Shown here one piece after another: positions 52,693-64,000 of a stretch of DNA of 64,000 bases. The position numbers were made by a program, and so were the translations under genes. The DNA is from Sheuella sp. GTDB lineage: Bacteria > Pseudomonadota > Gammaproteobacteria > Burkholderiales > Burkholderiaceae_B. Under the pieces are notes generated by a model, which saw nothing but the letters and a program-made list of their open reading frames with translations, was not told where the DNA came from and did no database searches. How positions within the stretch are numbered: the stretch's first letter is position 1; the number at the start of each line of letters is the position of its first letter. The stretch is taken from the NCBI GenBank assembly GCA_030650995.1, contig JAUSCY010000040.1, positions 1 through 64,000 on the forward strand. Reading direction: 5' to 3'.

Positions 52693-54426
52693 TTAATGAA
52701 CGAGAGCTCCAGACAAAACAATCACCACAAGTATCAGCACGAAAGACAAGGTTTTCCAAAACAGCAACGGGTCTCGCTCAATCAGCGGCTGAATGCGAAT
52801 CTGGAGAAATAGTGGATTGGGATTATGCAAGTCATAAACAAACTCCGAAATTTCCCCGTAACGATCCGCAAGATCGGGTTGCAGGGATTTTCTTAACGCC
52901 TCATCAATCCAGAGCGGGATTTTTTTATTCGTATCTGACAGCGGCGTGTAATTCAGTTTTTTTTGTGCCTTTCTGGAACTACTTTTAGGTACCTCAGTTC
53001 CGTAGGGTAATTTGCCCGACAACATCTGATAGGTGATCACGCCTAAAGAAAAAAGATCTGATTGCGTCGTTCCGTTTTCACCCAGAAAATATTCTGGTGC
53101 AGCGTATTGTGCAGCCCCGAGTAAATTGATTTGCTCGATGGGCGTAGCCACCTCCATTATGCCGGCCACACGCGTTGCACCAAAATCAATGATTTTCACA
53201 GTTCCATTTTTATCGATCATGATGTTGTCAGGCTTAAGATCCTGATGCAGCATTTCAAGCCGATGCAATGCACGAAGCCCCTTGGCGATCTGATCAACGA
53301 TGTTGCGGACAGTCTCAACATCAGGCGCTGGATGATCAATCATCCACTGCGCAAGCGTCTGACCCTCGATGTACTCCGTCGCAACATATATGTAATGACG
53401 CTTTCTGTTAATCGAGCAAGGTTTAAGAACATGTGCATTGTTAATACGGCGGGCGATCCACTCCTCCATCAAAAACCGTTCAAGATATGCAGGATCATCC
53501 CGCATACCGATTGAGGGTGTTTTGAGCATCACTTGCTCACCTGTCTCATCATCAACAGCGAGATAAAGATAGCTACGACTGCCTATACGTACCTCACGAA
53601 TAATCGTATAGCCGTCAAACTTCATTCGTGGTTCAAGCTTGGGTGGCAGCGACAGGCTCGAGATCTGGCGATACATCTCGCTGGACTCTGGATCTGGTAG
53701 CTGGTCAACCCGGACAATCTGAACAGTCAGGTTGTCGTGACTGCCACGCGAGTAGGCTTCATCTGCCAACTGCTTTGCTGAATACTCAAGATCAGTTGAT
53801 GAAACCAGCACATTGGTTATGTAGGAAGGATCCAGGTATTCATACACACCATCGGTAGCAAGCAGTAAGTAATCACCTATTTCAAGCGGTACAGAGCGAT
53901 AGTCAATATTGAGCCGACTATCAATACCCAAAGCCCGGGCAAGATAGCTTTTATCAGAAGAAACCCAGACCCGGTGATCTTCAGTGAGTTGCTCTAGCTC
54001 GCCATTGTTTAATCGATAGGCCCGCGTATCACCTACATGAAAAATGTGCGCTGTCGTAGATTTGAGCACCACAGCGGTAAACGTACAGACATAACCGCGA
54101 TCTTTGTCATAGCGGTGATTGCTTTGCTGGGTTTGGGAAAATAACCATGAATTAGTCGCAGCGATTACTTTTTCAGCAGAGGTCTTGACTGACCAAGTCT
54201 CGGAGGTAGAGTAGTAATCTTCAAGAAATCCGGTTACTGCGGACTCACTTGCGACGTGGCTCACCTCGCTCGTGCTGATGCCATCAGCCAGAGCGAGAGC
54301 AATGCCTTTTGTACTGAGCTGCGGCTCATGAGCAATACAAATACCGTGAAAGTCCTGATTCGAGTCTTTACGACCCTTATCAGAAAACTGACCGGTACTG
54401 ACGAGGAGTTGTCTGGTCATATGCAC
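52693..54426 (-). CDS. bifunctional PP2C phosphatase / Ser-Thr kinase with C-terminal TM
   Basis: N-terminal PP2C (DKGRKDSNQDFHG, LADGISTSEVSHVASESAV, HVGDTRAYRL); kinase HQDLKPDNIMIDKNGTVKIIDFGATR; C-terminal TM LSFVLILVVIVLSGALVH. Confidence 0.93.
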   Translation of the reverse strand: MHMTRQLLVSTGQFSDKGRKDSNQDFHGICIAHEPQLSTKGIALALADGISTSEVSHVASESAVTGFLEDYYSTSETWSVKTSAEKVIAATNSWLFSQTQQSNHRYDKDRGYVCTFTAVVLKSTTAHIFHVGDTRAYRLNNGELEQLTEDHRVWVSSDKSYLARALGIDSRLNIDYRSVPLEIGDYLLLATDGVYEYLDPSYITNVLVSSTDLEYSAKQLADEAYSRGSHDNLTVQIVRVDQLPDPESSEMYRQISSLSLPPKLEPRMKFDGYTIIREVRIGSRSYLYLAVDDETGEQVMLKTPSIGMRDDPAYLERFLMEEWIARRINNAHVLKPCSINRKRHYIYVATEYIEGQTLAQWMIDHPAPDVETVRNIVDQIAKGLRALHRLEMLHQDLKPDNIMIDKNGTVKIIDFGATRVAGIMEVATPIEQINLLGAAQYAAPEYFLGENGTTQSDLFSLGVITYQMLSGKLPYGTEVPKSSSRKAQKKLNYTPLSDTNKKIPLWIDEALRKSLQPDLADRYGEISEFVYDLHNPNPLFLQIRIQPLIERDPLLFWKTLSFVLILVVIVLSGALVH

Positions 54427-54481
54427 AATTTTTTGCCCCAGGATATCGAGATACCTAGGGCGATTAGATTTTTCCGACGGA

Positions 54482-55294
54482 TTACTTAAAACTACGTTTA
54501 GGACCGGTTTTGATGTGCGTACTGTAAAGCGTAAGACCGGTAAACGCTAACCCACCCACGAGATTACCGAGCACGACGGGAATCTCGTTCCAGATAAAGT
54601 AATCAAGAATCGAGAAATTTCCACCCATCATCAGACCCGACGGGAACAGAAACATATTCACGACAGAGTGCTCAAAAGTCATGGCAAAGAACAACATGAT
54701 TGGCATCCACATTGCGATGACCTTACCAGAGACAGTTGTTGAAATCATTGCACCCACTACGCCGAGCGAAACCATCCAGTTACACAACATCCCTCGAAAG
54801 AAAATCGTGAACCAACCCATCAGTCCGAACTTAGCGTAACCAAGCGTGCGTGCCTCACCAATCCCGCCTAGCTTCATCCCTACATCACTCGGGGCTGTCG
54901 TAAAACCATAGGTAAAAACGAAAGCCATCATGAAGGCAACAGTCAAGGCTCCCAAAAAATTACCCGTAAAAACAATACCCCAGTTTTTCAGGATAGCCTT
55001 GATCGTGACACCAGGGCGTTTATCAAGCCAGGCCAAAGGTGTTAATACAAAAACCCCGGTCAACAAATCGAAACCCAGAAGATAAAGCATACAGAATCCA
55101 ACTGGAAACAAGATCGCGCCGATCAGTGGTGAGCCTGTTTGAACTGTTGCAGTGACCGCAAACACCGCAGCCAGAGCGAGGATTGCACCCGCCATATAGG
55201 AACGGATTAACGCATCACGGGTTGCCATGTAGATCTTGGACTCACCAGCATCCACCATTTTGGTAACGAATTCGGAAGGCAATAAATAAGACAT
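54482..55294 (-). CDS. nirC: formate/nitrite transporter family (NirC)
   Basis: YMAGAILALAAVFAVTATVQTGSPLIGAILFPVGFCMLYLLGFDLLTGVFVL...FTGNFLGAL. Confidence 0.93.
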   Translation of the reverse strand: MSYLLPSEFVTKMVDAGESKIYMATRDALIRSYMAGAILALAAVFAVTATVQTGSPLIGAILFPVGFCMLYLLGFDLLTGVFVLTPLAWLDKRPGVTIKAILKNWGIVFTGNFLGALTVAFMMAFVFTYGFTTAPSDVGMKLGGIGEARTLGYAKFGLMGWFTIFFRGMLCNWMVSLGVVGAMISTTVSGKVIAMWMPIMLFFAMTFEHSVVNMFLFPSGLMMGGNFSILDYFIWNEIPVVLGNLVGGLAFTGLTLYSTHIKTGPKRSFK

Positions 55295-55364
55295 GAGGAA
55301 CTCCTAAATAAAATAAATATCAGCTTGAATAATTGATTTGGTAGTCATGACAAAAGACAGACGT

Positions 55365-55676
55365 TTAAATCGATAAATACACTTGACCGTTCTCAACCTT
55401 TACTTCGAATTTGTCACAAGAACCAACATCAGGAGAAACAACCTTCCCATCATCGAGCCCGATATTCCAACCATGCAAAGGACATGTCACACGGCGTCCA
55501 TGGACGATCCCTTGTGATAAAGGACCGTTTTTATGCGGGCATTTGTCATGCAATGCAAAGACCTCATCTATCGCATTACGAAAGATGGCGATATCTCCAC
55601 CCGTCCTGCGCTGAACAACTCTTGATCCCAGTGCAGGAATATCTTCTAGAGGGCAAATCAATTTCCAAGTACTCAT
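55365..55676 (-). CDS. nirD: nitrite reductase small subunit (Rieske)
   Basis: DKCPHKNGPLSQGIVHGRRVTCPLHGWNIGLDDG. Confidence 0.95.
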   Translation of the reverse strand: MSTWKLICPLEDIPALGSRVVQRRTGGDIAIFRNAIDEVFALHDKCPHKNGPLSQGIVHGRRVTCPLHGWNIGLDDGKVVSPDVGSCDKFEVKVENGQVYLSI

Positions 55677-55709
55677 TTCGATTTCCTTATTGCTTAATTT
55701 TCAAGAGGC

Positions 55710-58187
55710 TCAGACGTCGACCATGATGGGAATAAATTGCTTGACAGGTTGTTCCTGTCTGGATGTCTCCCATGGATCTCGCGCATCTTTGAGTGAATCG
55801 ATCAAGCGTGCATAAAGCTCTTTTCGACCTGCGTCGTCTTCAAGCACTTTATTCTTGGCATGGTTCAGCCCGACGCGCTCCAGATAGTGAGAGGTTCGCT
55901 CGAGATACCAGCCCTCCTCACGATAGAGCTGCAGAAAAGCGCCTGCATATTCCATCACTTCCTCATCTGTCGTGACCTTGCAGAAAAACTGAGCGACCTC
56001 TGTCTTGATCCCGCCATTACCTCCCACATAAATCTCAAATCCAGAGTCCACACCAATGACACCGACATCCTTAATTCCTGCCTCTGCACAATTTCGTGGA
56101 CAACCAGAAACGGCCAGCTTGACCTTGTGAGGCGCATACATATCGAACAACATTTTTTCCAGTTTGATACCTGTGTCCATCGAATGCTGGGTACCAAAAC
56201 GGCAGTGCTCAGCTCCCACGCAGGTTTTGACGGTGCGGATAGATTTTCCATAAGCATGACCAGAAACCATTCCCACTGCATTCAGGTCGGACCAGATTGC
56301 CGGAAGATCCTGTTTTTTAATTCCAAGCAGATCAATTCGCTGACCACCAGTGACCTTGACCGTTGGCACGTGATACTTTTCAGCCGCATCAGCAATCGCA
56401 CGCAGTTCGGTCGGTGTTGTCAAACCACCCCACATCCTTGGTACAACAGAATAAGTACCATCTTTCTGGATATTGGCATGTGCGCGTTCGTTGATAAATC
56501 GCGACTGCGGATCATCCTTTGTTTCGTGTGGAAATGTCGATAGCAGGTAGTAATTAATTGCTGGACGACATTTGTCGCAACCATTCGGTGTTTTCCATTG
56601 CATGGCCTGAAAAACACTTTCTTTGGTCAGCAGATGTTGCGTGCGAATTGTTGCGCGCACAATCTTGTGTGAATGATCGGTACACGCACAGACTGGCTTG
56701 GTGTCCACAGCGGCGGGGGTATAAGCTCCACCAACAGTAGAGGCCAGAATTTGCTCAACTAGACCCGTACAAGATCCGCATGAAGAGGAGGCCTTTGTGT
56801 GTTTACGTACCTCGTCCAGGGTAAACAAGCCTTTTTCTTTGATAGAGGTGACGATTGTTCCTTTACACACGCCATTGCAGCCACAGACCTCGGCTGAATC
56901 AGGCATGGATGCTGCAACGTTTTGACCCTTATGGCCTGTATCGCCCAGATGTGAGTTATTAAATGATTGGCCGAATAAGAGCTGAGTTCTTATTTCACGA
57001 ATGTCCTGGCCATCCTTCATCAACTGGAAATGCCATCCACCATCACCTGTATCACCATACAAAACAGCACCGATCACTCGATCGTTTTTAATCACAATCC
57101 GCTTATAGATTCCTGACTGTTTGTCATGCAACAGGATATCTTCTGTATCAGGGCCACCACTGAAATCCCCGGCTGAAAATACATCCACACCTGTTACCTT
57201 CAATTTTGTAGAGGTCACAGAACCTTTGTATTGCGCAATACCGAAATGCGCGAGGTGATTGGCGCATACTTTTCCTTGTTCAAATAATGGTGCAACCAGT
57301 CCATAGGCAATACCGCGATGCACAGCACACTCACCCAAGGCATAGATACTTGGATCAGTCACTGTCTGCAGCGTGTCTGAAACCTGAATTCCCCGCACTC
57401 TGCCATTTCCGCAAAAAAGGCCGGCCGCTTCTGCGAGCGCATAATTTGGACGAATGCCCGCTGCAATAACTACGAGATCAGCAGGAATTTGCATACCATC
57501 TTTGAGTCGCACAGCACTTACTCGATCGTCATCCCCCTCGATCAAGGCTTCCGTATGGCGTCCGAGCAGAAATTTCATTCCACGCGATTCAAGCGACGTT
57601 TGCAACATCTCTGCAGCTGCGCGATCGAGCTGACGCTCCATGATCCAGTCAGCCAGATGAACGACTGTGACACGCATGCCACGCAGCATTAACCCATTCG
57701 CCGCCTCCAACCCCAACAGACCGGCGCCTATCACCACCGCATGTTTATATCGCGCTGCTGCATCTATCATGGCCTGGGTATCTGCGATATCACGATATGC
57801 CAGTACGCCGTTCAGATCATTGCCAGGAACAGGAGGAATAAAGGGTGTTGATCCTGTTGCAATCAACAGCCTGTCATATTCTGCAGATGTCCCGTCATCA
57901 GCCACAACTTGCCGGCGTACGCGGTCGATCTGTGTAACTTTTTTTCCTGCATGCAAGGTAATGCCGTGATCCCGATACCACTGCAGATCGTTAAGCATGA
58001 TTTCTGGCAAAGTCATTTCACCAGCCAGGACTGGAGACAGCAGAATACGGTTGTAATTACCGTGCGGCTCAGCACCAAAGACCGTAATGTCGTACAGATC
58101 TGGAGTGAGCTTGAGCAGTTCTTCTATTGTGCGAATCCCTGCCATACCATTACCGATCAACACCAGTTTCTGTTTTTTCATCATCAT
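55710..58187 (-). CDS. nirB: nitrite reductase large subunit
   Basis: KQKLVLIGNGMAGIRTIEELL; BFD-like CGCNGVCKGTI; siroheme CVGAEHCRFGTQ...SGCPRNCAEAGIKD; start placed at MMMKKQK. Confidence 0.96.
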   Translation of the reverse strand: MMMKKQKLVLIGNGMAGIRTIEELLKLTPDLYDITVFGAEPHGNYNRILLSPVLAGEMTLPEIMLNDLQWYRDHGITLHAGKKVTQIDRVRRQVVADDGTSAEYDRLLIATGSTPFIPPVPGNDLNGVLAYRDIADTQAMIDAAARYKHAVVIGAGLLGLEAANGLMLRGMRVTVVHLADWIMERQLDRAAAEMLQTSLESRGMKFLLGRHTEALIEGDDDRVSAVRLKDGMQIPADLVVIAAGIRPNYALAEAAGLFCGNGRVRGIQVSDTLQTVTDPSIYALGECAVHRGIAYGLVAPLFEQGKVCANHLAHFGIAQYKGSVTSTKLKVTGVDVFSAGDFSGGPDTEDILLHDKQSGIYKRIVIKNDRVIGAVLYGDTGDGGWHFQLMKDGQDIREIRTQLLFGQSFNNSHLGDTGHKGQNVAASMPDSAEVCGCNGVCKGTIVTSIKEKGLFTLDEVRKHTKASSSCGSCTGLVEQILASTVGGAYTPAAVDTKPVCACTDHSHKIVRATIRTQHLLTKESVFQAMQWKTPNGCDKCRPAINYYLLSTFPHETKDDPQSRFINERAHANIQKDGTYSVVPRMWGGLTTPTELRAIADAAEKYHVPTVKVTGGQRIDLLGIKKQDLPAIWSDLNAVGMVSGHAYGKSIRTVKTCVGAEHCRFGTQHSMDTGIKLEKMLFDMYAPHKVKLAVSGCPRNCAEAGIKDVGVIGVDSGFEIYVGGNGGIKTEVAQFFCKVTTDEEVMEYAGAFLQLYREEGWYLERTSHYLERVGLNHAKNKVLEDDAGRKELYARLIDSLKDARDPWETSRQEQPVKQFIPIMVDV

Positions 58188-58212
58188 TCCATCCTGCTTG
58201 AGGAAAAAAAAA

Positions 58213-58251
58213 CGTCCGTCATGCAAGGAATCATCCTTTGCATGACGGACG
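58213..58251 (-). terminator. attenuator terminator in the nirB leader
   Basis: Minus strand CGTCCGTCATGCAAAGG-ATGATT-CCTTGCATGACGGACG followed by nine T (58204-58212), ending ~17 nt before the nirB ATG. Confidence 0.9.
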
Positions 58252-58316
58252 CCGTTGTCCGCACTTCGTGATCACTACGATCAGTCAGTTATCTCGCTGA
58301 AGCATCATTGCTTCAG
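58245..58316 (-). promoter_or_regulatory. two-hexaloop ANTAR recognition motif (P1 58297-58316, P2 58245-58262)
   Basis: P1 CTGAAGC-AATGAT-GCTTCAG (7 bp stem); P2 GCGGAC-AACGGC-GTCCGT (5 WC plus G-U). Both loops have A1 and G4. P2 overlaps the terminator 5' arm. Confidence 0.82.
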
Positions 58317-58344
58317 ATTTCAATATTTAGTTAAGCTTATTCAA

Positions 58345-58359
58345 GCAAAATCTATGCCA
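58345..58359 (-). promoter_or_regulatory. sigma54 -24/-12 promoter for nirBDC
   Basis: Minus strand TGGCAT-AGATT-TTGC, one mismatch to TGGCAC-N5-TTGC, GG-N10-GC spacing. Confidence 0.8.
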
Positions 58360-58394
58360 GATATAAATCAACCTAATTTCTAAAAAAACTCGAA

Positions 58395-59222
58395 TCAAGC
58401 AGCAATTGCATGAGCGTGTGTGAGTCCGATCAAATTCAATTGCGAAATTGAAGCAACGCCTGAAGCGACCTTGCCTACGATCATGACACTCGGACTTGCA
58501 AGTTTTTGCTCTTTTATCGTGTTGACAAGTTCACGTAGCACGCATCCTGCATGACGCTGACTTGATAGACTTGCGTTTTGCACGATGGCTACTGGCGTAT
58601 CTCCGGGCAAACCTTTCAATAAGCCCTCCATGATGGAGTCCGCGCTGGTTACGCCCATATAAATCACCATCGTCAGGCTTGCCTGATGTGCACACGCGGC
58701 AAGAGCTGCCCAGTCATTGCCCTGCCCCCCGGGTTTGTTATGACCAGTAATGAAAACAACACCATGTGCCTGGTCTCTGTGCGTGAGGGGGATATCGAGT
58801 GATGTAGCGGCTGCCAGACCCGAAGTTATCCCGTTAATGACATCGACTTTGATGCCAGCCTTACGAAGATGGAGGACTTCTTCACCACCTCTGCCGAAAA
58901 TAAACGGATCCCCTCCCTTCAAGCGCACGACAGTTTCACCGTTGACTGCCTCATGAATCATCAGCTTTTCAATCAGACTCTGCGGGGTGGATTGACACCC
59001 TCCTCGCTTACCTACGTGAATGATCCGTGCCTGGACGTCAGCGTGCGCAAGGATCGCGTCATTGACTAAGTCATCGACTAGCAAAACTGTTGCACGCCCT
59101 ATGGCGTTGACCGCTTTAAGGGTAAGCAATTCCGGATCGCCAGGGCCTGCGCCGACCAGTGTGACACTACCCGAGCGATTACCGGCAATTCCAAGCGTAC
59201 TAACATTAACTGTATGAATCAT
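58395..59222 (-). CDS. cobA: uroporphyrinogen-III C-methyltransferase (siroheme synthesis)
   Basis: VTLVGAGPGDPELLTLKAVNAI; VRLKGGDPFIFGRGGEEV. Confidence 0.93.
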   Translation of the reverse strand: MIHTVNVSTLGIAGNRSGSVTLVGAGPGDPELLTLKAVNAIGRATVLLVDDLVNDAILAHADVQARIIHVGKRGGCQSTPQSLIEKLMIHEAVNGETVVRLKGGDPFIFGRGGEEVLHLRKAGIKVDVINGITSGLAAATSLDIPLTHRDQAHGVVFITGHNKPGGQGNDWAALAACAHQASLTMVIYMGVTSADSIMEGLLKGLPGDTPVAIVQNASLSSQRHAGCVLRELVNTIKEQKLASPSVMIVGKVASGVASISQLNLIGLTHAHAIAA

Positions 59223-59515
59223 GATGGAAGTCCATGTGAAAATAATTCAACGATGGACGCCCTTGTCCTGATTGCGAATAACGCCTGTCTCAGCGTCACT
59301 CATGTGAACCTCCATTGGCTCATAGTGCGATAACAGCAATAAGCGTGCCAACACACGCAGCCACAGACGCAAAGGAGAAATCAGAAGAGAAGTAATTGTG
59401 AAAGTAATGTTGAACGAAGGGTCCCAATGGGTTTGGAACCGGGCTGCGCACTCGAGGGATGCATAGAGGGATGCACCAGCACTATCTTGGTGCAAAATAT
59501 TACTGAATTACAGCC

Positions 59516-60775
59516 TCAACTTTTGGGTAAAAAGTCGGCCATCGAAAGTACAGACTCTGCGACTTCAACTAAACGCCGGTTCTGATTCATTGCTTTGTCG
59601 CGCAATAATCTGTAGGCGGCGTCTTCACTCAGGGCCTGATGCGACATAAGCACGCCTTTTGCGCGCTCAATCAATTTTCTCTCGTCCAGAGCTGCTTTCA
59701 CCGTAGCAAGCTCTTGACTGACGGACTGAAGGTGAAGAGTTTGTTTCTGAAGTAATTCAAAAATATCTCGGGCAAGAGGCGAACCTAACGATTCCAAACC
59801 AAGCGATTCAATATGAGGAATATGATCTAAGCCAGAAACTAATACTGTGCCCGGAATAACTGAGTCTTGCTTCGAAAGAGCTGCCAATAAAGATTGCTGA
59901 TCATTCAACTCTAATTGGGTACGCTTGACACGAATCTGACTGGATTGCTGCAAGCTTTCCGTCAGATGCTGCTCGGCAATGAAGATGTCATCAATTCGTT
60001 TTGAGCAATAATTGAACCAGATTTCGGCTGCGCCTGGATCTGCCTGCAAATGCGGCGCGAACAGTTTTCTGCGCATACGTTCAATATCTGCCAAAGGCAT
60101 AATAGTCTGCAAAGCATGCCATTGCGTCAGAATTGACTCGCCACAAAACGACTCAAATCTATCAAAACACTGCTCTTGAAGCTCAATTAAATCTGAAAGT
60201 ATTTTCAGATCATCTTTACCAAGATGGTTGCTGGCAAAAATCCTTGTACCTAATGCGCGCTCCCGGCCAACGAATTCTTTACCTTGCATCAGGTTAAATA
60301 AAGCCACCAGCAATCGTGAAATCTCAGGATCAACGGATATATCTGCCGCATCGAACACCAAGGCAAGTAAGGAAGAGATCAAATGGCTATAGCGCTCAGT
60401 CAATTGAGCAGGTGATGCATTTCTGCCTTGCACACTGGCGCGCACCAGCGGGAGTTGTTCAAGCCCATGTAAAACCACTGCAATTCGAGTAAATAATCGA
60501 GATCCACCAGTCATACCAGAGATCGGATCTACACTGCTTAACCACGCTTGGACTTTATCTTTCGCGCAATCCGTTAAATCTACACAGTGTTCCCATCGGG
60601 TAGAGAAGTTCAAGTCTTTTGAAGTCAGATAAAGATTAGAGATACCTCGTTCACTCTGCAAGTGCTGTACTAATTCGCTTACAACCCTTACCAATCCACA
60701 GATGCGGTTAAGTTTTTCTAACTCATCAATTTCACATCGCTTTGCTGCGATGAGGTAAGTGATTGCTGTTTGCAT
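59516..60775 (-). CDS. nasR: NIT-domain/ANTAR antitermination regulator (NasR-like)
   Basis: NIT-like LQSERGISNLYLTSK; C-terminal ANTAR LATVKAALDERKLIERAKGVLMSHQALSEDAAYRLLRDKAMNQNRRLVEVAESVL. Confidence 0.92.
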   Translation of the reverse strand: MQTAITYLIAAKRCEIDELEKLNRICGLVRVVSELVQHLQSERGISNLYLTSKDLNFSTRWEHCVDLTDCAKDKVQAWLSSVDPISGMTGGSRLFTRIAVVLHGLEQLPLVRASVQGRNASPAQLTERYSHLISSLLALVFDAADISVDPEISRLLVALFNLMQGKEFVGRERALGTRIFASNHLGKDDLKILSDLIELQEQCFDRFESFCGESILTQWHALQTIMPLADIERMRRKLFAPHLQADPGAAEIWFNYCSKRIDDIFIAEQHLTESLQQSSQIRVKRTQLELNDQQSLLAALSKQDSVIPGTVLVSGLDHIPHIESLGLESLGSPLARDIFELLQKQTLHLQSVSQELATVKAALDERKLIERAKGVLMSHQALSEDAAYRLLRDKAMNQNRRLVEVAESVLSMADFLPKS

Positions 60776-60981
60776 AAGATGCTCTGGTATAAAAATGTAG
60801 CGACAATTTAATTATTGCAGTTTAATTGCCGAAGTTGATTATTTATTCGAAGTGTCCTTTTTTTTAAAAACCTACTAAGGTTAAATCCTAAATAAAAATA
60901 CGGCCCGGAAGGTGCAACTTACTGGGTAGTAAGGAAAAACAATTAATACGTTCCATCTTTGCAATCAATAACGAGGGTTTA

Positions 60982-61458
60982 ATGATTAATCTGCCTGCAC
61001 ATCAACTGACCATGTCAGTATTGATGACACCAGAGACCGCGAATTTTTCAGGTAATGTCCACGGTGGCAATATCCTGAAGTTACTTGATCAGGTTGCATA
61101 TGCCTGCGCTAGCCGTTATGCCAAACGTTATGTTGTAACAATGAGCGTTGAGCAGGTGACCTTCAAGCAGCCCATTCATGTGGGTGAAATGGTTCACTTT
61201 CTCGCTTCTGTGAATCGAACGGGACGCTCCTCCATGGAGATCGGCATCAAAGTGATTGCCGAAAATATTCGTACTCAAGAAGAAAGACACGTAAACAGCT
61301 GTTTTTTCACGATGGTCGCAGTCGATGACGATCACAAACCCGTAGACGTACCCGAGTTCAAACCGGTCTCGCACGTTGAGTGTCGAAGACATGCTGCGGC
61401 AGAAGCCCGTAAAGAAATGCGACTTGCTCTCGCACAAAAGACGGCTTTGATCGCCTGA
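60982..61458 (+). CDS. acyl-CoA thioesterase (hotdog fold)
   Basis: MTPETANFSGNVHGGNILKLLDQVAYACASRYAKRYVVTMSVEQVTFKQPIHVGEMVHF. Confidence 0.92.
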   Translation: MINLPAHQLTMSVLMTPETANFSGNVHGGNILKLLDQVAYACASRYAKRYVVTMSVEQVTFKQPIHVGEMVHFLASVNRTGRSSMEIGIKVIAENIRTQEERHVNSCFFTMVAVDDDHKPVDVPEFKPVSHVECRRHAAAEARKEMRLALAQKTALIA

Positions 61459-61500
61459 GCCAAAGACTATTGGTGCTTTTAATGCATAAAAGTTAAAAGG

Positions 61501-64000
61501 CTAATCTTGTTTGGGTGAGATTAACAGCCACTTTATTAACTGCATCGGTACGATCATCATGACGCCTGCCAGCACAACCATGCTCCAGAAAACTGGTGAA
61601 AGCAATTCGAACCGAAAAGCTTCTGCAACCATGGGGACCGCTGTAATAACAATTAACGCCGCCATGGTTCCTGAAAGTACCCAAATACTGACAGGTGATA
61701 TTCCCTGAAACAATCCACGCCATTGGAAACGCATTGATCTGTTAGAAAATATCATGACAGCATTGGCTGTCACGAGCAACAGAAATGCGGCGCATGCAGC
61801 CATGCCTGAAGAAAAATTCAGGTCTAACATCCATTTAAAGAGACCGATGACTGCGATCGTAACCAATACCCCCTGGGAGATGCTCAACCAGAGCATTTTT
61901 GTTGAAATCAATGGCTCATCTGTTTTTCTCGGAGGCTGTTGCATCAAGCCGGTATCGCGATCTTCTGATTCAAATACGATAGAACACGCCGGGTCAATCA
62001 CGAGCTCGAGAAACGCAATGTGCAACGGTGCCAGCAATATGGGCAAGCCAAACAAAACAGGAATAATTGCCAGACCGACAATCGGGATGTGAACCGCGAG
62101 CGTATAAATCATCGCCTTACGTAAATTAGCAAATGTTTTGCGTCCTCGGTGAATTGCAGCCAAAATTGAGGAAAAATTATCTTCCAGTAACACCAGAGAT
62201 GCGGCTTCACGTGCAACATCTGTTCCGCGCCGACCCATTGCGATGCCGATGTGAGCAGACTTCAACGCTGGGGCATCGTTGACGCCATCTCCAGTCATGG
62301 CAACCACTTCACCTTGAGCTTTCAAGGCATCGACCAGTTGTAGTTTTTGTTGTGGTTTAACCCGGGCAAATATATTTACAGTCTGAAGATATCGCCTAAA
62401 GGTCGAATCATCCATTCCTGCAATTTCATCGCCAGTCAACACTTTCTGAGAGGAGATGCCTGCTTGGCTAGCTATAGCAAGCGCAGTACGGGGATGATCC
62501 CCCGTGATCATGATGACACGGATACCTGCCTGAGCGCATTGGGCAACAGACGAGACCACATCCTTTCGCAATGGATCGGCCAATCCGATCAGACCCACCC
62601 ATTCAAATTGAAAATCGTGTTGCAACGCTGGCCAGGAGCTTTGTTGAACATGTCTGGCTTTTGCTACCCCAAGCACACGCAAGCCTTGATCAGCCATCGC
62701 CGCCGCCTTGGCAGTGATCGATAACATCTGAGACGGACCAAGATGGCAGAGCTCAGCCACAGCCTCTGGAGCTCCTTTGGCTGCGACCATATCAAATGAA
62801 GTGTCCGTACAGCGCCAGAGATGAGTCATGGAAAGCAACTTTGGAGATAATTCATACTCACGCGCCAGGATCCATTCAGGATGCAAGTATTTTGTTTCTA
62901 ATAACTGCGCCCTGCCCAGTTCGTGAAACGCCTTTTCCATAGGATCATGGGGATCAATCTCGCTGGCAAGTACTGCGTATTCGACCAGTTCGTGAAACTC
63001 GTCCGGCAACTGCCGCTCTCCTAGTCCCTGAACGTTGAATTCAGCACTCGGTATGCTCAATGCAGCGACACTCATCTGATTCTCTGTCAGAGTACCTGTC
63101 TTATCCACACACAAAACCGTCGTTTGACCAAGTGTTTCAATCGCCCCCAGACGGCGGGTCAGTACCTTTTGTAAAGCAAGCCTGCGCGCAGCTAGTGCAA
63201 AGAAAACGATCATAATCACAGGCAATTCCTGTGGCAATACGGCCATGGCCAGCGTAATCCCTGCGAGGATAGACTGTATCAAGCCGCCACGTAGCAGAAA
63301 GAACAACACCATCAATACAACACACAAAACAATACCAATCACAGCCAGGCGTTTAGTTAATGCTGCAACGTGTTCACGCAAGGGAGAGGTCTGTATGCCA
63401 ATCACATCTAAAGAACGGCCAATGCGTCCAAATTCAGTTTGGTAACCTGTGACGGACACACGCATCAAGCCCTGACCTCTCACCACAAGCGTGCCCGCAT
63501 AAAGTTGATCGCCCAGCTTTTGTTTTTCAACGACCTCTGATTCTCCGGTCAGCATTGATTCGTCAGTCGCAAGCTCATGCGATTCAAGTAAAACACCATC
63601 CGCAGCGACTCGGTCTCCTTCAGAAACAATCAAAATGTCATCTCTGACGACTTCTCGTCCTGGAATACGTTGTGCCACACCTCCCCGGATCACCAGAGCG
63701 CGGGGACTGGACATCTCTCGTAAAGCTTCCAAAGCATTATCAGTGCGCCTCTCCTGCAAAATCGTAATCGTAATGATGATGCTGACAAACCCCAGCAATA
63801 TCAAGGCCTCATGGGCATCCCCCATCAACAGATAAAGCATTCCCGCACCGATCAGCAACAAAAACATAGGCTCGCGCATGACATCCAGAACGATGTCGCG
63901 CAGCGTCCGACGCTGACTGATTCCCAGTTCGTTGGGACCGTCCTCATGTAATCGTTGCAAGGCGATTTCGGGACTTAGTCCGTTGTTAAGGTCTTTATCC
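61501..64000 (-). CDS. P-type cation-transporting ATPase, 5' end outside window
   Basis: VDKTGTLTENQ; MTGDGVNDAPALKSAHIGIAMGRRGTDVAREAA; the frame stays open to the window end (DKDLNNGLSPEIALQRLHEDGPNELG), so the track start at 63960 (TTG) is not the true start. Confidence 0.93.
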   Translation of the reverse strand, partial: DKDLNNGLSPEIALQRLHEDGPNELGISQRRTLRDIVLDVMREPMFLLLIGAGMLYLLMGDAHEALILLGFVSIIITITILQERRTDNALEALREMSSPRALVIRGGVAQRIPGREVVRDDILIVSEGDRVAADGVLLESHELATDESMLTGESEVVEKQKLGDQLYAGTLVVRGQGLMRVSVTGYQTEFGRIGRSLDVIGIQTSPLREHVAALTKRLAVIGIVLCVVLMVLFFLLRGGLIQSILAGITLAMAVLPQELPVIMIVFFALAARRLALQKVLTRRLGAIETLGQTTVLCVDKTGTLTENQMSVAALSIPSAEFNVQGLGERQLPDEFHELVEYAVLASEIDPHDPMEKAFHELGRAQLLETKYLHPEWILAREYELSPKLLSMTHLWRCTDTSFDMVAAKGAPEAVAELCHLGPSQMLSITAKAAAMADQGLRVLGVAKARHVQQSSWPALQHDFQFEWVGLIGLADPLRKDVVSSVAQCAQAGIRVIMITGDHPRTALAIASQAGISSQKVLTGDEIAGMDDSTFRRYLQTVNIFARVKPQQKLQLVDALKAQGEVVAMTGDGVNDAPALKSAHIGIAMGRRGTDVAREAASLVLLEDNFSSILAAIHRGRKTFANLRKAMIYTLAVHIPIVGLAIIPVLFGLPILLAPLHIAFLELVIDPACSIVFESEDRDTGLMQQPPRKTDEPLISTKMLWLSISQGVLVTIAVIGLFKWMLDLNFSSGMAACAAFLLLVTANAVMIFSNRSMRFQWRGLFQGISPVSIWVLSGTMAALIVITAVPMVAEAFRFELLSPVFWSMVVLAGVMMIVPMQLIKWLLISPKQD

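Follow-up and report, generated by a model that had tools for sequence, protein, structure and literature searches.

Organization of the locus

The window, by which we mean the whole 64 kb stretch of Sheuella sp. DNA that was analysed, carries the following genes:

59516–60775, minus strand: nasR, NIT-ANTAR nitrate/nitrite-responsive RNA-binding regulator, 419 aa
58395–59222, minus strand: cobA, uroporphyrinogen-III C-methyltransferase of siroheme synthesis (Pfam TP_methylase, E 2e-46)
55710–58181, minus strand: nirB, nitrite reductase large subunit (Pfam NIR_SIR and others)
55365–55676, minus strand: nirD, nitrite reductase small subunit (Rieske)
54482–55294, minus strand: nirC, formate/nitrite transporter

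Because of a comparison with two relatives (L024 and L105), the third ATG, at 58181, was taken as the most likely start of nirB. The product of 59516–60775 contains a NIT domain (Pfam, E 2e-44) and an ANTAR domain (E 6e-20), and a family profile comparison with the NasR structure PDB 4AKK matched both domains (E 8e-78). On alignment with Klebsiella pneumoniae NasR, residues E175, R176 and R236 are identical, as is the ANTAR arginine that corresponds to R340; of these, PMC7496416 names the nitrate-pocket residues E175 and R176 and the essential arginine R340. No ANTAR gene other than nasR was found in the genome (assembly about 91% complete), and its product is the presumed cognate ANTAR protein of the nirB leader described below. 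An earlier sequence-only reading of this DNA had placed a NIT-ANTAR gene 1.3 kb upstream of this leader on the same strand; the gene and its strand were confirmed, while the distance has to be corrected, since about 1.15 kb separates the end of nasR from the leader downstream.

A NasR of this type was noticed in only 4 of the 32 genomes of the window's genus, and several of the others have nirB without NasR. This patchy distribution suggests gain or loss of the system.

Structure of the nirB leader

The leader between cobA and nirB consists of the following elements, and the sigma54 site, P1, P2 and the U9 terminator were all read at the minus-strand places that had been given for them:

58344–58359, minus strand: sigma54 −24/−12 site, TGGCATAGATTTTGCT, exact match
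58297–58316, minus strand: P1, CTGAAGC-AATGAT-GCTTCAG
58269–58283, minus strand: small linker hairpin, TGATC-GTAGT-GATCA, inside the 34-nt P1–P2 linker
58245–58262, minus strand: P2 (predicted antiterminator), GCGGAC-AACGGC-GTCCGT
58204–58252, minus strand: intrinsic terminator using the P2 3′ arm, stem 58252–58212 and U9 58212–58204

Both hexaloops, AATGAT and AACGGC, indeed have A at position 1 and G at position 4 (A1/G4) and a closing C-G pair, in line with the rule from NasR mutagenesis and SELEX (PMC3369931, PMC7496416). Adjacent hexaloop hairpins with A1/G4 and C-G closure occur only twice in the 64 kb, both strands included, and of the two only the one at nirB is joined to a terminator arm. 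For the terminator region a folding energy of −35.5 kcal/mol (z −5.8) was computed. The terminator begins with the 3′ arm of P2, so that in the predicted folds P2 overlaps and excludes the terminator, as the sequence-only reading had proposed. Forcing P1 and P2 to form costs the full leader 7.8 kcal/mol relative to the terminator fold, and termination is therefore expected without protein. The run of nine U's was also correctly described, while the gap to the nirB ATG is not about 17 nt but 22 nt when counted from the third ATG. The nirB terminator was missed by our generic terminator scan, whose simple pattern probably does not cover a stem so long and bulged; a stem which the same scan placed over the cobA sigma54 site was rejected as spurious.

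In the genus-mate G026 (L024 9453–9512) the 7-bp stem of nirB P1 is kept, and its loop reads CACCAT, without A1/G4, which counts against reading the leader as a NasR target.

Conservation of the nirB leader in related bacteria

A covariance-model search had been suggested as a check. Rfam gave no match in positions 54000–64000 at E values up to 1. A covariance model, R1, was built from 23 leaders with the window's genus excluded and Klebsiella nasF included; the short-linker Variovorax leaders were left out of it, as their P1 3′ arm was misplaced in the alignment (A2). Built thus from other genera, R1 scored the nirB leader at 38.4 bits, with an E value of 1.4e-8 for the window and of 6.9e-7 for the genome as a whole. 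Among the 23 relatives 6 of the 7 P1 pairs have changed on both sides and 95% of cells are paired, a percentage inflated by the way P1 was picked, namely as the best of the stems with 4 or more pairs; slid registers of the P1 alignment were far worse. P2 hardly varies, which leaves little covariation to be seen. The structure of this leader family is thus kept by compensatory change, which the sequence-only reading had sought in both hairpins and which is seen in P1, P2 being uninformative in this respect.

Similar leaders are widespread. Across 80 NIT-ANTAR loci, mostly of betaproteobacterial genomes, a conserved P2, GGACAA(C/A)GGCGTCC, lies in most cases just downstream of nasR. The nasF leaders of Klebsiella, Pantoea and Erwinia, taken from plasmid-collection records, have the same anatomy as the nirB leader. 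R1 matched in 81 of 399 Burkholderiales genomes, and the genes behind these matches were mostly assigned as ABC nitrate transporter (nrtA/nasF), nirB, nirC or cobA. The order sigma54 site, P1, P2, U-tract recurs in relatives; their U-tracts were checked by eye, the automatic anti-P2 measure being unreliable for some leaders, and a strict motif scan that demanded a near-perfect 8-mer terminator arm missed many relatives. In the window's own genome R1 gave no convincing match apart from the nirB leader and a second one before cobA. The weak matches C147, C131 and C76 (E 0.3–9) were rejected as chance, the best of them, C147, sitting in repetitive GC-rich coding DNA.

In Ideonella and Burkholderia plasmids (L134, L137) a NIT-ANTAR gene precedes an ANTAR-type leader of nirC. 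In the Burkholderia leader the P2 loop is AACAGC, without G4.

One may argue that the nirB leader is a mere terminator after cobA in which the hexaloops arose by chance, as terminators between two genes are common and Rfam is silent here. We find this extremely improbable in view of the E value reached by a model from other genera, the covariation of P1, the conservation of the leader beside nasR and the same order of elements in the relatives. The model match, the P1 covariation and the occurrence in Burkholderiales together led us to regard the nirB leader as an ordinary NasR-type antitermination leader, and our analysis indicates that it very probably works by NasR-type antitermination. The assignment to the NasR type made in the sequence-only reading is upheld by the NIT-ANTAR partner, its key residues, a covarying family that includes Klebsiella nasF and the presence of an RpoN gene.

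A second dual hexaloop before cobA

The other dual hexaloop of the window, at 59253–59323 on the minus strand, lies between nasR and cobA and was absent from the sequence-only reading. R1 scored it at 29.7 bits, E being 2.6e-6 for the window and 1.3e-4 genome-wide. Its elements are:

59335–59350, minus strand: sigma54 −24/−12 site, TGGCACGCTTATTGCT, exact match
59304–59323, minus strand: P1, (A)TGAGCC-AATGGA-GGTTCA(C), hexaloop A1/G4
59276–59301, minus strand: linker hairpin of 10 bp between P1 and P2
59255–59268, minus strand: P2, GGAC-AAGGGC-GTCC, hexaloop A1/G4
59216–59275, minus strand: predicted OFF hairpin in which two bases of the start codon (59222–59220) are paired; no U-tract

No U-tract follows P2 of the cobA leader in the window or in the sister genome G028, and P2 here does not overlap an intrinsic terminator. 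The sequence GTCCAT (59258–59253) of the P2 3′ arm is complementary to ATGGAC (59235–59230), which occupies positions −13 to −8 of the cobA AUG. The hairpin so formed has a z of −3.4, with 1 of 200 shuffles as stable, and the OFF form is favoured by 3.9 kcal/mol over a fold on which P1 and P2 are imposed; folding thus predicts a P2-arm hairpin over the ribosome-binding site or start codon at cobA, the one in G028 being weak (z −1.3 for the hairpin alone, not significant). G028 (CobA identity 69%) shares the cobA layout; A1/G4 P1 and P2, the sigma54 site and GTCCAT/ATGGAC are kept, and the rest of the spacer is unlike that of the window. The occluding hairpin is known from these two genomes only, with no compensatory change between them. 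An 18-codon leader open reading frame (59303–59247, minus strand) with GGAGG before its ATG overlaps the cobA linker and P2; it was set aside, since it is not conserved in G028, whose corresponding frame continues into cobA.

The cobA leaders of Polynucleobacter, Azoarcus indigens and G649 are of the usual kind, with U-tracts. We conclude from these sequences that cobA appears to be a recurrent NasR target across lineages, and the cobA leader of the window is likely to be one as well. In the window's genus, occlusion of the start site has probably taken the place of the cobA terminator, which would make this leader a probable variant of the NasR/ANTAR kind with a translational output. As for the control of cobA being translational rather than transcriptional, with NasR as activator, we rate the chances as about even. 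Translation control was suggested by Ramesh et al. for ANTAR hits without terminator (PMC3369931), and nitrate control of the Paracoccus nas genes has been proposed at the translational level (PMC5424462). The cobA leader also resembles the actinobacterial ANTAR RNAs, whose motif lies at the translation start without a terminator; in those RNAs, however, the ribosome-binding site is inside the motif and binding represses translation (PMC8164766), whereas at cobA P2 and the occluding hairpin compete, and binding is expected to activate, the opposite sign.

There are two other explanations. The cobA leader may be a decayed antitermination leader that has lost its terminator, P1 and P2 being without effect or a weak NasR sink; the U-tracts of cobA leaders elsewhere, the restriction of their loss to two genomes and the weak hairpin of G028 speak for decay. 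But the hexaloop hairpins, the sigma54 site and GTCCAT/ATGGAC have been kept in both genomes, though the two CobA proteins have diverged to the extent given above and the spacers are otherwise different, and we consider decay fairly unlikely. Alternatively, NasR could control transcription of cobA without an intrinsic terminator, by way of Rho or pausing, and translation would change indirectly. The lack of a U-tract agrees with this, and RNA that goes untranslated because its start site is hidden can favour Rho; the predicted hairpin nevertheless sits on the start codon itself, and this possibility seems to us unlikely.

Linker length and third hexaloops

The linkers of eut leaders measure 5–12 nt, and 14 nt or an extension by 20 nt abolished function (PMC3369931, PMC8934654). 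The 34-nt linker of the nirB leader is far outside this range and, being beyond EutV tolerance, is a point against the NasR-type reading; the limit was measured for EutV and is not a defining rule for NasR. Linkers of the known set are described as variable, 2–25 nt having been curated in actinobacteria, and in 90 non-redundant leaders we found 2 to 50 nt. The sequence-only reading had thought a 34-nt linker possibly unusual, which is true against EutV and against Klebsiella nasF, whose linker we read as 9 nt (34–35 nt in the window leaders), but not in Burkholderiales, where long linkers are common.

Linkers of at least 30 nt fold better than their shuffles: over 29 cases the median p is 0.045, and Fisher's method gives a combined 1e-16 with leaders treated as independent, which relatives are not. 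That of cobA is nearly all one 10-bp hairpin (shuffle p 0.007). The small hairpin that had been pointed out in the nirB linker is present, yet it is not more stable than shuffles (p 0.2–0.35) and was rejected as a significant structure. A folded linker may bring P1 and P2 closer. Furthermore, a third A1/G4 hexaloop hairpin was observed in 10 of 60 linkers of at least 16 nt, against 0.7 expected, nearly all ending 0–4 nt before P2. Such triple-hexaloop leaders include L180 1501–1579, L211 151–227, L208 151–226 and L129 41–110, and further L156, L209, L219, L224 and L248; the window leaders have no third A1/G4 hexaloop.

Candidate promoter elements of the two leaders

The window contains no exact sigma54 match other than the two sites listed above, and both stand at dual-hexaloop leaders. 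They have GG at −24 and GC at −12 in the expected spacing, and RpoN is encoded elsewhere in the genome, which makes them candidate sigma54 promoters. A sigma54 site usually precedes P1 in the relatives as well, with 11–28 nt from TTGC to P1 in 67 of the 90 non-redundant leaders and most often 16 nt; because of this closeness, transcripts would begin almost at P1. Two NtrC-like boxes were found upstream of the cobA sigma54 site:

59494–59478, minus strand: NtrC-like box 1, TGCACCAAGATAGTGCT, 1 mismatch
59463–59447, minus strand: NtrC-like box 2, TGCATCCCTCGAGTGCG, 2 mismatches, 31 nt from box 1

As single matches they are not significant on their own, and the search ahead of the nirB promoter gave no perfect NtrC box. 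Among 48 related leaders, 28 have perfect boxes, GCAC-N7-GTGC, in the preceding 260 nt, where 0.85 would be expected. The NtrC-like boxes of Burkholderiales NasR-type leaders often come as pairs about 31 nt apart.

Comparison with known systems and proposed mechanism

The window shares with the Klebsiella NasR/nasF system the NIT-ANTAR protein, A1/G4 hexaloops in P1 and P2, a P2 overlapping an intrinsic terminator (at nirB) and a sigma54-like site upstream. Klebsiella has one leader, at nasF, whereas the window has two, at cobA and nirB, the former without a terminator. Romeo et al. 2012, cited in PMC3795266, reportedly described ANTAR-type antitermination at the nirBD-PA1779-cobA leader of Pseudomonas aeruginosa, which is said to be a single operon with NasST two-protein sensing. 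ANTAR-type antitermination of nirB and cobA genes is thus a likeness to that leader and other NasT leaders, while a NIT-ANTAR NasR and separate cobA and nirB leaders set the window apart from it. With the EutV/eut leaders of Enterococcus faecalis the dual hexaloop antiterminator rule is shared (PMC3369931, PMC8934654), but EutV is a phosphorylated response regulator and its short linkers do not tolerate lengthening.

The nasR-cobA-nirBDC region is best explained as a two-output nitrate-assimilation locus. NtrC and sigma54 would start transcription of cobA and nirBDC from separate promoters. The default RNA fold of both leaders would be an OFF form that uses the P2 3′ arm, namely the U9 terminator at nirB and, at cobA, a hairpin that lacks a U-tract and covers the start codon together with the ribosome-binding region. 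We infer that nitrate- or nitrite-bound NasR would bind the A1/G4 loops of P1 and P2 and hold P2 together, whereupon RNA polymerase would read into nirBDC and ribosomes would reach cobA. That both leaders are NasR targets, the nirB leader acting by antitermination, we hold with good confidence; that one NasR, through the same motif, has two outputs, antitermination at nirB and translation activation at cobA, is put forward tentatively.

If this is true, an ANTAR switch has changed its output by replacing only the pairing partner of the P2 arm, and NasR control has been extended to siroheme synthesis alongside nitrite reduction in one locus. The two neighbouring leaders would then offer a naturally occurring comparison, one protein and one RNA motif possibly controlling transcription in the first case and translation in the second. 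Long, folded linkers across the clade and the triple hexaloops challenge the need for close ANTAR hairpins derived from EutV, a need which becomes testable with NasR.
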